A DNA stretch of 64,000 nt. Origin: Geothrix sp. (GTDB taxonomy: Bacteria > Acidobacteriota > Holophagae > Holophagales > Holophagaceae). Location: assembly GCF_030219325.1 (NCBI RefSeq), contig NZ_CP126625.1, positions 3,584,857-3,648,856 on the forward strand, written 5' to 3'. The translations under genes were made by a program, and so were the position numbers. The first letter of the stretch is position 1. Every line of letters begins with the position of its first letter. Positions 3,381 to 32,788 of this stretch are shown here, piece by piece. The notes beneath the pieces are model-generated. The model saw only the letters and a program-made list of their open reading frames with translations, was not told the origin of the DNA and ran no database searches.

Positions 3381-3458
3381 GGCGGCTGTAGCTCAGTTGG
3401 TTAGAGTACTGGATTGTGATTCCAGGTGTCGCCGGTTCGAGTCCGGTCAGCCGCCCCA
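3381..3458 (+). tRNA. tRNA-His (GTG)
   Basis: Complete cloverleaf. The anticodon loop TTGTGAT on a CTGGA/TCCAG stem reads GTG. It shows the tRNA-His hallmark of an extra 5' G (G-1 at 3381) opposite discriminator C73 at 3455. CCA is encoded at 3456-3458. The T-arm is GCCGG-TTCGAGT-CCGGT. Confidence 0.97.
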
Positions 3459-3498: not shown

Positions 3499-3640
3499 AC
3501 GAGCCGGGAGTCGAACCGGCGACAGTGAGCTTGCGGAGACAGCGCGGGGCGCTGTCGGAGCAAGATCGGCAGACCGCGCAGCGGGCTGCGGCCGGTTCGA
3601 GTCCCGGTGGCATGGGTCGAAGCCCCGGGCAGGCCGACAC
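3499..3640 (+). repeat. tRNA-associated structured repeat, copy A1
   Basis: Immediately downstream of the tRNA-His terminator. It begins with an inverted copy of the tRNA T-arm (3501-3523, core GAGTCGAACCGGCGAC). Next comes AGTGAGCTTGCGGAG, then hairpin 1 (3539-3555, ACAGCGC-ggg-GCGCTGT), GGAGCAAGATCGGCAGA, and hairpin 2 (3574-3584, CCGC-gca-GCGG). It ends with a direct T-arm-like segment (3588-3611, with GGTTCGAGTCCC). CTTGC and GCAAG form an outer stem around hairpin 1. The same architecture follows the tRNA-Arg and tRNA-Pro genes in this window. No coding potential is credible here. Confidence 0.8.
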
Positions 3641-3740
3641 CCACCCCCGGAGGGCCGGAGCAAGATCGGCAGACCGCAAAGCGGGCTGCGGCCGGTTCGA
3701 GTCCCGGTGGCATGGGTCGAAGTCCCAGACAGGCCTCCGC
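3641..3740 (+). repeat. tRNA-associated structured repeat, copy A2 (5'-truncated)
   Basis: A second copy exactly 100 bp downstream of A1, matching it almost base for base from GGAGCAAGATCGG to AGACAGGCC. Hairpin 2 is CCGC-aaa-GCGG at 3674-3684, so the loop changed and the stem was kept. It lacks the inverted T-arm and a normal hairpin 1. It ends 2 bp before the stop of the convergent AraC gene. Confidence 0.78.
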
Positions 3741-15200: not shown

Positions 15201-18200
15201 GGCGTGTTCAGGTACTTGAAGTGGGCGAGGGCCCCGGCCGAGCCGTTGCCCATGTTGTGGCAGGTGGTGCAGGCGATGGCGTTGGCCGCGTTCGTGGCGT
15301 TATGGGTGCCAAGGCTGTGCCGGCCGAAGGCATCGTTGAACTGGGCCGTGGTCGCGGAGGAGGCCGCCACACCATGACAGGCCGTGCACTGGACGCCGCT
15401 GTTGATCGCGCCCGTCTGCCAGCTGGGGGTGGCCTGGCCGCCGTGGCAGCTCACGTTCGAGCAGGTGAGCGCGGCCGGGGTGAAGAGGGAGGTGCCTGTC
15501 TTCGCGTTGAACGTGGCATCCATGGACACGGGCGCGGGGCCCGTGGGCGTGGCGACCCGCGCGTTGGCATTCGCATAGTGGGTGGCGGTGCCGCTGCCGC
15601 TGCCGGCGTGGCAGGTGTTGCAGGTCAGCGCCGTGGCCAGGTTCATGTGCTTGGTGTGGGCGCCGGCGATGCTGGGGAAGGTGGTGCCGCCGGGGCCCTT
15701 CGGCAGTCCGCTGGTGCCCGCATGGCAGGACAGGCAGGTGGCGGGGCCCGATGCGGCCAGGGTGGGATCCGCGAGCTTGTGGCACACGTTGCAGAGCGGC
15801 GCCGCGGCCATGGGCGAGCTGCCCGAATAGGCATGGCAGGCGGAGCAGTCCGCCGTGAAGACGGCCGCGGTGGCGGTGACGTGGCCATTGCCCTGGGTGT
15901 CGGTCTGGCCCGAGAGGAACGGGATGGCGTGCGGGGCGCCGCTGGCGGTCCAGGTGTCCACCGTCGCCACGTGGATGTGGGTGTGGCAGGTGAGGGCGCA
16001 GCCGCCGTTGCCCTGGGTGGCGCTCGTCACCGTGTAGGTGCCAGGGCCCGTGACGATGGCGGGGTTGAACACGATGGTGCCGCTGGGCAGCTGGTCCACG
16101 GGCAGGCCCGTGGCCACGGCGTCCACCGCCGGGGTGTTCAGGTACTTGAAGTGGGCGAGCGCGCCAGCCGAGCCGTTGCCCATGTTGTGGCAGGTGGTGC
16201 AGGCGATGGCGTTGGCGGCATTGGTGGCGTTGTGGGTGCCGAGGCTGTGGCGCGCGAAGGCGTCGTTGTACTGGGTGGTGGTCGCCGAGGAGGCGGCCAC
16301 ACCGTGGCAGGCGGTGCACTGCGTGCCGCTGTTGAGGGTGCCGCCCTGCCAGGCGGGGGTCCCCTGACCGCCGTGGCAACTGACGTTCGAGCAGGTGAGC
16401 GAGGCGGGCGTGAAGGTGGGGTTGCCACCACTCTTCGCCTTGAAGGTGGGATCCATGGCCACGGTGCCGGGTCCAGTGGGGGCCGCGGTCCGCGCGTTGG
16501 CATTGGCGTAATGGGTGGCGGTTCCCGTGCCGGCGCCGGTATGGCAGGTGTTGCAGGTCAGGGCCGTGGGCAGGGCCAGGTGCTTCGCATGGGCTCCGGG
16601 AAGGCTGGGGAAGGCCGTGCCGGCGGGGCCGGCGGGCAGGCCCGCGGGACCGACGTGGCAGGACAGGCAGGTCCCGGCCCCCGTCGCGGCCAGGGTGGGA
16701 TTGGCCAGGGCATGGCAGATGGAGCAGAGCGGGGAAGCGGCGTTGGGCGAGGTTCCGGAGTACGCATGGCAGTTGGCGCAGTCCGCCGCGAAGATGGCGG
16801 CCGTGGCCGTCAGGTGGCCATTGCCCTGGACATCCTTCTGTCCGGTGAGGAAGGGCACCGGATGCGGGACGTTGGCGAAGGTCCAGTCATTCACGGCGGC
16901 GGTGTGGATGTGGGTGTGGCAGGTGAGGGCGCAGGTGCCGCTGCCCTGGGTGGCGCTGGTCACCGCGTAGGTGCCGGGGCCCGACACGATGAGGGGGTCG
17001 AAGGCGATGGTGCCGCTGGGCATCTGGTCCGCAGGCGCTCCGCTCGAGGCGCCGTCGACCGCCGGGGTGTTCAGGTACTTGAAGTGGGCCAGGGCGCCGG
17101 GCGAGCCATTGCCCATGTTGTGGCAGGTGGTGCAGGCGACGGCGTTGGCCGCGTTCGTGGCGTTGTGCGTGCCGAGGCTGTGCCGGCCGAAGGCGTCGTT
17201 GAACTGGGTGATGGTGGTCTTGGAGGCGGCCACGCCGTGGCACGCGGTACATTGTGTCCCGCTGTTGATCGTGCCGAACTCCCAGGCGGGCGTGGCCTGG
17301 CCCCCGTGGCAGCTCACGTTCGAGCAGGTCAGGGAGGCGTCGGTGAACGCGGGCGCCCCGCCCGTCTTGGCTGCGAACAGGGGATCGATGGCCACGCTGG
17401 CGGGCCCGGCGAGCTGCCAGAGCCGGGCATTGGCGTTGTCGTAGTGGGTGAAGGTGCCGCTGCCGCTGCCGCTGTGGCAGGTGTTGCAGGTCAGCGCCGT
17501 GGCCAGGTTCATGTGCTTGGCGTGGGCGCCGGCGATGCTGGGGAAGCCGGTGCCCCCGGGGCCCTTCGGCAGTCCGCTGGTGCCTTCGTGGCAGGAGCGG
17601 CAGGTGCCGGCATTGGTGCCCGGCAGGGTGGGATCCGCCAGTTGGTGGCATTCCTGGCAGAGCGGGGCCGTCGTCGTGGGGGAGGTGCCCGAATAGGCGT
17701 GGCAGTTGGCGCAGTCGGCGGCGAAGGCCGTGGCCGTGACGGTCAGGTGGCCATTTCCGCTGCTGGTGGTCATCCCGGCGAGGAAGGGGATCGGATGGGG
17801 GGCGACCTTGTCGTCGTGGCAGAGGGTCGCGTTGAAGCAGCCCGGCTGGGTACCTGCGGGCGCGGGGATGGCGGGGTGGCCGATCGGATTCTTCGCCGAG
17901 CCCGGGAAGTGGCACTGGACGCAGACGGCGGCATTGGACGGATCGGTCGTCACGTGGGTGAAGGTCGAGCCAGGGCCTAGGCGCCAGGGCTTGGGCGGAT
18001 GCGGGGCGCTCACGCCATGGCAGGTGACGCAGGCATTGGCGGCGGGGCCGCCCGAGAAGTCCTTGTCGTGGCAGATCTGGCAGGAGGCCAGGCCCGCGCC
18101 GGCCGGCGTGCCGATCGCCGACTTGGCACGCAGGCCGTGGCTGCCCGGATCCGCGAAACCGGGCGTGGACTGGTGGTGGCACCCTGTCGTCATGCAGGTC

Positions 18201-22644: not shown

Positions 22645-23682
22645 CTACCGGGCCCGGATGGAGCGGACGATCCTCAGCACCTCCGCATGGGTCGGCTCGA
22701 GCTCCTTCCCGGTCTCGAGCACCTTCGAGAAGTGCAGCTCCAGCCACTTCCCCTGGTGGATCGTCTCGAAGTACCACTGCGCCATGAAGTACCCCTTCAT
22801 GGGGAACTCCGACGGATAGCTGATCAGGAAGCCCCTGGGCTCGTCGATGGGTTCCGAACGGACCTTCCCGCCGGGCAGCAGCTTCACGGCCCCCTGGCTC
22901 TGGCCCTGGCCGGCCTTCTCCAGGTCGGCCAGGCTCTTCCCGTTCAGGTCGTCCACCAGCACCGAGAGGTTCAGCTGCCAGGCTTCCGAGGTGAAGTAGC
23001 CGACCTGGTAGTAGGCCCCGTGGAAATGCTTCTCACCCATTTTCTGCTGGAAGCCCTCGAGGTCGGCCGTGAGCGAGATGCCGGCACCCTGGATTTTGGT
23101 GGCGGCAGCCGGAACCTGGGGCCGGAAGACCGCCTTCTGGATCGCGGCGAGCGCCTCGGCCACCGCCGGATCGCCCTTGGCGTCCGACATGATCGTGAAG
23201 CTCAGCATCAGGCGCCCGAGCCCCAGCTCGCCATGGGTGAGGATCGGGAACTCCCCTGGCGGCGGCGGGCCCGCGGGCGCCCGGTACGCCTTGTCGGTGG
23301 CCTCGTAGAAGAACCCGGCGCCCTGGCTCCCCGTCAGCGTCTTCAGGGGCAGCTCCTGCTCAACCGTCTGCCCCTTGAAGGCGTTCTGCCCCGCGAGGCA
23401 GAACCCGCGGAGCCTTTCGGGCAAGGTGAAGTCTGGCTCGTTCCGGGGGCTCCACAGCACCGTCACCTGGAGGCTGCCCCGGGGCGTGCCGGCCCGCTCG
23501 AACGCGAGGGTGGGCGGCAGGTCCTTCGGCGTGAGGCGCTGGACCTCCTTCCATTCCGAAGGAAGGACCAGACTCACCGTCCCCCGGCCGGGGATGGGGA
23601 GCTCCTGCGCCGTGATCACCGGCGCGACCCCCACCAAAAGTGCGACCGCCCGCATGACGTGCGAGGTCTTGATCAAGGCCAT
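22645..23682 (-). CDS. exported protein of unknown function
   Basis: 345 aa from the ATG at 23682, chosen for its GGAGGGG site; an earlier in-frame start has none. The signal peptide is ALIKTSHVMRAVALLVGVAPVITAQ. The mature part is a mixed alpha/beta protein with many charged and Gly-Pro turns (FYEATDKAYRAPAGPPPPGEF) and one Cys. It has no recognised motif and is convergent with the nucleobase uptake operon, 54 bp apart. Probably periplasmic. Confidence 0.7.
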   Translation of the reverse strand: MALIKTSHVMRAVALLVGVAPVITAQELPIPGRGTVSLVLPSEWKEVQRLTPKDLPPTLAFERAGTPRGSLQVTVLWSPRNEPDFTLPERLRGFCLAGQNAFKGQTVEQELPLKTLTGSQGAGFFYEATDKAYRAPAGPPPPGEFPILTHGELGLGRLMLSFTIMSDAKGDPAVAEALAAIQKAVFRPQVPAAATKIQGAGISLTADLEGFQQKMGEKHFHGAYYQVGYFTSEAWQLNLSVLVDDLNGKSLADLEKAGQGQSQGAVKLLPGGKVRSEPIDEPRGFLISYPSEFPMKGYFMAQWYFETIHQGKWLELHFSKVLETGKELEPTHAEVLRIVRSIRAR

Positions 23683-23778
23683 GGACACCCCTCCGATGAG
23701 ACATGCAGAACGCGCCAGTGTCACATGAAGCCCCGCCCCCAGACCCACTTCAGACCCGACCCGCTAGACTAGACCCGC

Positions 23779-23855
23779 GCGCCTATAGCTCAGGTGGATA
23801 GAGCAGCAGCCTTCTAAGCTGCAGGTCGCTGGTTCGAGTCCAGCTAGGCGCACCA
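23779..23855 (+). tRNA. tRNA-Arg (TCT)
   Basis: The acceptor stem GCGCCTA pairs with TAGGCGC. The anticodon loop CTTCTAA on GCAGC/GCTGC reads TCT (AGA codons). CCA is encoded at 23853-23855. No normal terminator follows; instead the 3' half can pair over 27 bp with the adjacent repeat. Confidence 0.97.
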
Positions 23856-23984
23856 GTGCGCCTGGCTGGACTCGGACCAGCGAGTGGGATCGCGGAGGCC
23901 CTCCGGGGGAGGGCCGGGAGCGAGACCGGCGGACGGCATAGCCGGACGCGTTCGAGTCCAGCGTGAACTGGGTCGGCGCCCCAC
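23856..23984 (+). repeat. tRNA-associated structured repeat, copy B1
   Basis: Abuts the CCA of tRNA-Arg. Its first 27 bases are the reverse complement of the tRNA 3' half except at two places where G would pair with U, so the RNA can form a continuous 27-bp stem with a CCAG loop. It continues with GAGTGGGATCGCGGAG, hairpin 1 (23897-23915, GGCCCTCC-ggg-GGAGGGCC), GGGAGCGAGACCGGCGGA, hairpin 2 (23934-23944, CGGC-ata-GCCG) and a T-arm-like GTTCGAGTCCAGC. Confidence 0.82.
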
Positions 23985-24111
23985 GCGCCTGGCTGGGCTC
24001 GGACCAGCGAGTGGGATCGCGGAGGCCCTCCGGGGGAGGGCCGGGAGCAAGACCGGCGGACGGCATAGCCGGACGCGTTCGAGTCCAGCGTGAACTGGGT
24101 CCGCGCCCCAC
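23985..24111 (+). repeat. tRNA-associated structured repeat, copy B2
   Basis: A tandem copy of B1 with a 127-bp period and only about three differences. One turns GCGAG into GCAAG, weakening the outer stem. It ends 6 bp before the stop codon of the convergent EF-hand-type gene. Confidence 0.82.
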
Positions 24112-24117
24112 CAGGCC

Positions 24118-24561
24118 TCAGGCGTAGAGATCCAGAACCCGGCTTCGATCCGCCCCTTCAGCGGCCCTCGACCCCCCGGGGGCATAGGTCGCCGGAGCCG
24201 CACCCTGGCTGACCCCATTCAGGGGATGCCTCAGGTCATAGGCCTGCCTTTCCAGAGGGCTGACCGTGCCATTCCGGTCTGCGTCTTTCGGATCCAGGTA
24301 GGCGCTGCCTGGACGGCCGGCCTGGGCGATCGGATTCGGCAGGCTGTCACTCGGCCGGGAGCGAAGCTGATCCTGGAGAGGAGCCGACTTCCGCCCTGTC
24401 GTGGTGACCTTCGGATGCTTCAGGTCATAGGCCAGCAGCTCCGCCGGGGAGACGACGCCATCCTGGTTCGTGTCCCTGGGATCGTAGGAAACCAGGGTCC
24501 GTGGCTTGCCAGGCCCCACCGCAAGGCTCGCTGAGCTGCTCTGAATGCCGGAGATCGCCAT
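24118..24561 (-). CDS. small EF-hand/dockerin-type calcium-loop protein
   Basis: 147 aa. Two calcium-binding loops of the DxNxDGxVSxxE type are visible: DTNQDGVVSPAE near residue 30 and DADRNGTVSPLE near residue 95. Each is followed by the same helix (AYDLKHP and AYDLRHP), so the protein is an internal duplication. No signal peptide. The start MAISGIQSSSASLAVG resembles type III/flagellar-style Ser-rich N-termini, but that is weak. It lies downstream of the exported-protein cluster and may be co-transcribed with it. Confidence 0.7.
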   Translation of the reverse strand: MAISGIQSSSASLAVGPGKPRTLVSYDPRDTNQDGVVSPAELLAYDLKHPKVTTTGRKSAPLQDQLRSRPSDSLPNPIAQAGRPGSAYLDPKDADRNGTVSPLERQAYDLRHPLNGVSQGAAPATYAPGGSRAAEGADRSRVLDLYA

Positions 24562-32534: not shown

Positions 32535-32677
32535 TTGCCTCTCCGTACTCGACGCCGACCCACCAAGGCGCGGATTCGAACGCATCCGGCTTCGCCGTGT
32601 GCCAGCCTTGTTCGGCGCGACATTTAGTCGCGCCTCGGCAAGTCCACTCGGAGGTTCGGATCCTCTCGCAAGCTTCC
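32535..32677 (-). repeat. tRNA-associated structured repeat, copy C (tRNA-Pro side)
   Basis: On the minus strand, after the tRNA-Pro terminator: an inverted T-arm (32673-32646, GAGAGGATCCGAACCTCCGA), CGAGTGGACTTGCCGAG, hairpin 1 (32634-32614, GGCGCGAC-5 nt-GTCGCGCC), CGAACAAGGCTGGCACA, hairpin 2 (32597-32587, CGGC-gaa-GCCG), and a T-arm-like GCGTTCGAATCC (32583-32572). The T-loop variant GAATCC follows tRNA-Pro, whereas copies A and B carry GAGTCC as their own tRNAs do. Confidence 0.8.

Positions 32678-32788
<111 letters not shown>

Follow-up and report, generated by a model that had tools for sequence, protein, structure and literature searches.

The 27-bp stem directly behind tRNA-Arg(tct) in the window, by which we mean the whole 64,000-nucleotide stretch of Geothrix sp. 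DNA analysed here (NZ_CP126625.1, positions 3,584,857 to 3,648,856), is on our preferred reading, to which we give about an even chance, the arm nearest the tRNA in an array of two structured, non-coding tRNA-trailer repeat units, which resembles the Escherichia coli RtT elements in layout (Table 1). Units with this layout carry arms specific to their tRNA, have a conserved plus-strand fold and lie behind tRNAs, and the E. coli proK locus exists as alleles with zero, one or two units. The Geothrix version of the layout occurs at many tRNAs and in several core families and has no detectable sequence relation to RtT. The first-pass annotation suggested that the antisense stem could end or regulate the transcript or block 3' processing; as a full account of the locus this is not supported, because the stem belongs, as one of the arms, to a tRNA-specific repeat array found throughout the genus.

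Table 1. Features of the tRNA-Arg(tct) array and of the other units in the window (window coordinates)
Feature	Position	Strand	Details
tRNA-Arg(tct), from which the T-arm is copied	23779-23855	+	ARAGORN and Rfam RF00005, 71.8 bits
27-bp stem, 5' arm (tRNA nt ~47 to acceptor)	23826-23852	+	
Stem loop CCAG	23853-23856	+	
27-bp stem, 3' (antisense) arm	23857-23883	+	Two A>G changes, giving G-U pairs
Unit 1 antisense T-arm	23865-23881	+	16/17 complementary to the tRNA-Arg(tct) T-arm
Unit 1 model R1 match	23865-23981	+	115.5 bits
Unit 1 folded core I (GAGTGGG...GACGC)	23882-23949	+	Two hairpins, T-arm copies closing them
Unit 1 sense T-loop / 3' T-stem copy	23950-23962	+	13/13 to own tRNA
Linker bearing the recurrent TGGGTCGGCGCC tail motif	23963-23991	+	
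Unit 2 antisense T-arm	23992-24008	+	15/17
Unit 2 folded core I	24009-24076	+	Model R1 match 23992-24108, 106.5 bits
Unit 2 sense T-loop copy	24077-24089	+	
Unit 2 tail, end of array	24090-24111	+	
Core I unit 3' of tRNA-His (3382-3458, +)	3504-3625	+	Antisense arm 14/17 to own tRNA
Weak second copy behind tRNA-His	3612-3725	+	E 0.07
Core I unit 3' of tRNA-Pro(tgg) (32712-32788, -)	32550-32666	-	Antisense arm 16/17 to own tRNA

The antisense match to the 3' half of tRNA-Arg is real, with all 27 positions paired as RNA and two of them as G-U, although its 3' arm had initially been placed one base too low, at 23856-23882. The CCAG loop lies at the CCA end as described, and both variant positions, which are A>G changes at offsets 7 and 18 of the 3' arm, do keep pairing on the plus strand. 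The computed fold of the 58-nt hairpin reached −56.9 kcal/mol (z −11.4; equalled by 0 of 200 dinucleotide shuffles), against −32.9 kcal/mol for tRNA-Arg(tct) alone, and the stem is not due to chance, since the same arrangement repeats across the genus Geothrix. The unit is duplicated, as had been proposed with about three differences in 127 bases: the copies at 23858-23984 and 23985-24111 differ at exactly three positions (23870, 23922 and 23975), and since 127 bp is not a multiple of three, they share no one reading frame. Each unit consists of an antisense copy of the host T-arm, a folded core of ~68 nt and a sense T-loop copy, which in the window covers 13 nt of the tRNA and does not reach the CCA. 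The earlier statement that no ordinary terminator exists agrees with our scan of the plus strand from 23600 to 24300, which found neither a terminator-like nor a sigma-70 promoter-like site; the intrinsic-terminator layout of a GC hairpin followed by a T-run was absent as well, there being no T-run 3' of the stem.

Similar units are widespread in the genus. Searching the genome of origin with the DNA of 23856-24111 gave matches behind tRNA-Met, tRNA-Pro (cgg and ggg) and tRNA-Asp, and R1, a covariance model of this core (core I) built from seven own-genome copies, gave 16 matches there at E<=1, including those behind tRNA-His and tRNA-Pro(tgg) in the window; the structure models include the T-arms themselves. 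The R1 core was found in 24/25 Geothrix genomes and in none of 16 genomes of other families, and across the phylum it occurred in 26/396 genomes, comprising 25 Geothrix and one member of a second genus of the same family. A core I pattern scan returned 32 genome records, all of them Geothrix, Holophagaceae or 'Acidobacteria bacterium' MAGs, and no match in viral contigs. An Rfam search with the window unit gave nothing relevant, and a search of a mainly non-subscription literature collection found no paper on such Geothrix arrays.

Nearly all core I copies sit behind tRNA sequence. Among the 154 matches in the fetched loci (112 + 42), 131 lay 8-510 nt 3' of an intact same-strand tRNA and 14 behind a tRNA 3' half, making 145/154; the remainder comprised six at contig edges (MAG contigs tend to break in repeats), two on an artefact contig and one (L062) lacking upstream tRNA sequence. 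The artefact contig, L086 (G009:C40), is palindromic, with two opposite-strand copies at its midpoint (18,362 of 36,724), and was rejected as evidence; its copies, which have no tRNA, were left out of the arm-matching and core-kinship analyses and are present as rows in alignment A2. The nearest tRNA was Pro-cgg for 34 copies, Arg-tct and His for 17 each, Pro-ggg for 16 (including two L106 copies whose called tRNA is downstream), Pro-tgg for 14, Met-cat for 12, Asp and Thr-cgt for nine each, and Arg-ccg for five. In several cases the tRNA 3' half stands apart from its 5' half (e.g. Met at L063 and L092; Thr at L104 and L108). At these four loci and at L097, L380 and L384, only the 3' half, sometimes from the anticodon loop onward, precedes the array, as though tRNA and array had been separated by an insertion of DNA.

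The arms are matched to their own tRNA. For the antisense 17-mer of first copies, the own T-arm was the best match in 80/88 (ties counted; uniquely in 66) and was not the best in the other eight. The first-copy antisense arm matched its own tRNA at a mean of 14.8/17 positions versus 12.0 with permuted tRNAs (permutation z 15.6), the own T-arm was best for 25/43 later core I copies (z 8.6), and the sense copy matched its own tRNA best in 48/88 first (z 9.9) and 24/43 later copies (z 6.9), all of these z values being overstated because related loci are not independent. Within one isoacceptor, arms followed species-specific T-arms: in the Arg GTTGG species the one first copy carries a GTTGG arm (1/1), and in the Pro-tgg GCGAG species a GCGAG arm was present in 4/6 first copies, while in the remaining two the tested position is occupied by an additional module. 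At L075, L102, L060, L072, L058, L097 and L110 an additional hairpin module separates the antisense arm from the start of the core.

A model-free survey, which counted an arm of at least 14/17 or a T-loop of 10/10 within 400 nt of a tRNA, found such copies at 15/45 tRNAs in the genome of origin (including Val-tac, counted via the neighbouring Asp), 8/46 in G020 and 3/45 in G138, which belongs to another genus; in other families of the phylum it found 0/49. An earlier survey at a threshold of at least 12/14 gave 12, 8 and 1 downstream matches versus 2, 2 and 0 in the upstream control.

The conserved core folds, and the substitutions point to the strand on which it does so. Core I alignment A2 has 111 distinct rows, in which 90.8% of cells are paired; changes on both sides of a pair were found in 500 cells, versus 166 in shuffled and at most 128 in slid controls; alignment A3 (42 rows) gave 179 versus 58 and at most 50, respectively. 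Both alignments were fitted to the model, which is why the slid controls carry weight here. One U-G pair was kept in 100/107 (A2) and 39/42 (A3) rows, and changes in the antisense arm of 100 copies were strongly skewed (A>G 70, T>C 7, G>A 9, C>T 4). The kept U-G pair and the A>G bias indicate that the plus (tRNA) strand is the folded molecule, most likely as RNA, with single-stranded DNA as the other possibility. The arm position facing tRNA T55 was changed in 32/100 core I arms and formed G-U in 26/35 copies of a second core, core II; a perfect TTCGAA complement seems to be avoided in the antisense arm. The E. coli arm reads TGAGAA at the position facing the T55 region.

Core II (model R2) occurred in 22/396 genomes of the phylum, 19 of them Geothrix and three from other genera of the family. 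The 35 copies examined come from 26 of the 30 loci found. For thirty of these copies an intact tRNA lies no more than 600 nt away, and its T-arm was the best match in 30/30 (uniquely in 28); the other five have tRNA 3' sequence in their upstream context. Covariation was again pronounced (234 versus 87 shuffled and at most 40 slid), while further pair types did not exceed the control for core II, 139/500 shuffles reaching the observed value. A third kind, behind Ser, Glu and Gln tRNAs, has an arm against the acceptor and T-loop only. In some arrays the core is followed by the complete tRNA 3' half as a direct repeat, sometimes together with the terminator. The full 24-nt tRNA tail (24/24) followed 3/131 core I and 11/30 core II copies; it was also found at Ser, Glu and Val and, in another genus, at Asn, Thr, Pro and Ser. 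The duplicated 3' half was seen at L064, L109, L136, L144, L145 and other loci, and is absent from the window.

The closest known system is RtT (RF00391; E. coli rttR/tyrT, with an annotated copy at proK too). It is known chiefly as the by-product of a single tRNA operon in E. coli, whose transcript gives off RtT as a stable RNA. RtT likewise forms tandem units right behind a tRNA, each with an antisense T-arm that fits the host, a hairpin core and a tRNA 3' tail, and the number of units varies. At tyrV each 178-bp unit (127 bp in the window) combines an antisense T-arm (14/17 to tRNA-Tyr) with a 19-nt tRNA tail, and the proK (tRNA-Pro) core is ~80% identical, with a Pro-specific arm, GAGGATGAGAACCTCC, and a Pro tail. 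RtT cores were found in 4655/5426 E. coli genomes at 1-9 places per genome, one strain having five RtT in tandem. In a sample of 40 records spread over the proK query ranking, with RtT counts taken from annotation, 17 had one RtT, three had two, 19 had tRNA-Pro without RtT and one was a short plasmid match. Alleles read directly had zero (L359, L360, L363), one (L357, L362) or two (L361) units, and the three without units keep the palindrome, which is the outcome expected of recombination between palindromes. Geothrix differs in that many tRNAs per genome and several core families are involved and the sense tail is mostly short, the window unit having no tRNA 3' tail to the CCA. The RF00391 model had no match in the window at its gathering threshold, in 23700-24250 at E<=1 or at Geothrix loci L055, L195 and L178 (E<=1), whereas it matched E. 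coli L325 and L357; R1 in turn had no match at E. coli tyrTV (best E 1.2). Homology to RtT by model was rejected, and shared ancestry is unproven since neither model finds the other. RtT is reported to be raised at 10 °C in PMC8092127, and PMC2965389 notes a resemblance to rtT among the members of one enterobacterial cluster of BIME attenuators.

We propose that the arrays follow the order tRNA, T-arm palindrome, core, palindrome, core and so on, in which a locus with zero cores would consist of the palindrome only. Unit number would change by recombination between the tRNA-derived palindromes, and the two window copies may have arisen in this way. Transcription of the tRNA would run on into the array, and this 3' extension would then be cleaved away as a folded RNA, as in RtT. 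Of the 79 first copies behind a tRNA other than Arg-tct, 52 have a T-run in the gap before the arm, so transcription of the units there would need read-through or a promoter of their own, and the arm there cannot be an ordinary terminator; a simple terminator is therefore ruled out as the class-wide role.

A quarter of the probability, in our estimate, goes to mobility: the units would be small non-coding elements that move into the T-loop of tRNA genes, leave a second copy of the tRNA 3' half and remodel their arms on the target, with the tRNA restored as it is with integrases. Tyrosine-recombinase integrative elements use tRNA T-loops, and like their integration sites some Geothrix loci have a duplicated tRNA 3' half, or 3' halves apart from 5' halves; in contrast to such elements, the ~130-bp units are too small for an integrase, and they have antisense arms that vary by tRNA. 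Consistent with mobility, the same core I occurs behind nine tRNA species, a full tRNA tail follows some cores, and different cores occupy the same tRNA: the 20 readable intact tRNA-Arg(tct) loci comprise 11 with core I (two with an extra hairpin first), six with core II and three with none. Kinship among the cores speaks against it. In the 119 of 131 copies that passed a length filter, the nearest relative shared the isotype in 87 (permuted 32) and the genome in six (permuted 4.6); cores thus stay with the isotype, not the genome, which makes spread between tRNAs rare (one example is Arg L041 versus the window Pro unit, 93%) and rules out recent hopping within one genome as the main process. 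The proK alleles, moreover, differ by whole tandem units, which recombination explains, and one of the 152 non-artefact copies lacked upstream tRNA sequence, with six at contig edges. This last count also separates the units from REP/BIME sequences, short palindromic repeats that, according to PMC2965389, can act as terminators: the Geothrix units are also short palindromic repeats, but they are restricted to the 3' side of tRNAs, copy the tRNA in their arms and are not dispersed among many kinds of genes. Analogies with integron attC sites, retrons, bridge RNAs, group I guides and REP were weighed and set aside.

It is rather improbable that function resides in the antisense stem by itself, as a device that ends or regulates the transcript of tRNA-Arg or controls its 3' processing, although the tRNA-Arg(tct) loci lend this reading some support. 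An antisense arm (13-17/17 nt) stands 7-20 nt behind the tRNA in all 20 readable intact loci, none of which has a T-run between tRNA and arm; L139, L143 and L149 have the arm without a core; and the window hairpin exceeds the tRNA fold in stability by a wide margin. (The count leaves out L150 and L151, which are unreadable, and L153, which is rearranged.) The consistent lack of a preceding T-run makes a 3'-end role of the first hairpin at tRNA-Arg(tct) plausible, judging from sequence, and our preferred model of a structured trailer array incorporates it: the hairpin there would help to define the 3' end. As a whole account, a lone antisense regulator is rejected because the layout repeats with tRNA-matched arms. 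Also against the stem-only reading, most other tRNAs are separated from such an arm by a gap containing a T-run, the stem itself has no T-run behind it, and the conserved folds of the cores behind it would be left unexplained. At L153 (G010:C214) a tRNA-Arg T-arm is joined straight to the linker of a unit, as if by recombination between tRNA and unit.

Least probable, at long though not negligible odds, is a functionless by-product of template-switch palindromes and tandem slippage beside tRNAs: quasi-palindrome correction matches arms to a conserved tRNA without selection and could have done so here, and tandem copy number does change in E. coli, but the many compensatory changes in the core stems, the kept plus-strand U-G pair and the strand-biased arm substitutions speak against it. 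Candidate routes by which the arms are renewed are template switching or gene conversion in the palindrome, selection for pairing and target copying at insertion.

In an acidobacterial genome, roughly one tRNA in four is followed by a tRNA-matched, RtT-like layout, and the Geothrix core families with their strong covariation turn RtT into a comparative problem in which arm, core and tRNA each come in many natural replicates. We tentatively raise the further idea, which we think more probably wrong than right, that RtT and the Geothrix arrays are two branches or inventions of a general class of tRNA-trailer elements. Such elements would write the host tRNA in inverted form over their own flanks, copying the target as they spread; if so, one element could serve any tRNA. 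More generally, an antisense T-arm beside a tRNA may be the border of a repeat and not a single regulator.

Some further features were noted. ARAGORN called two tRNA-Arg(ccg) genes in the window, at 15569-15664 and 17435-17530 (96 nt, inside long ORFs), which have no Rfam support and are probably false. At L195 a tRNA-Ser and its trailer (887-1043) match Rfam sX4 weakly, at 32.8 bits (gathering threshold 70), a match that may reflect the tRNA only. Finally, the minus-strand ORF at 24118-24561 contains a 71-nt repeat (24224-24294 and 24413-24483, 70% alike), perhaps encoding an internal protein repeat.
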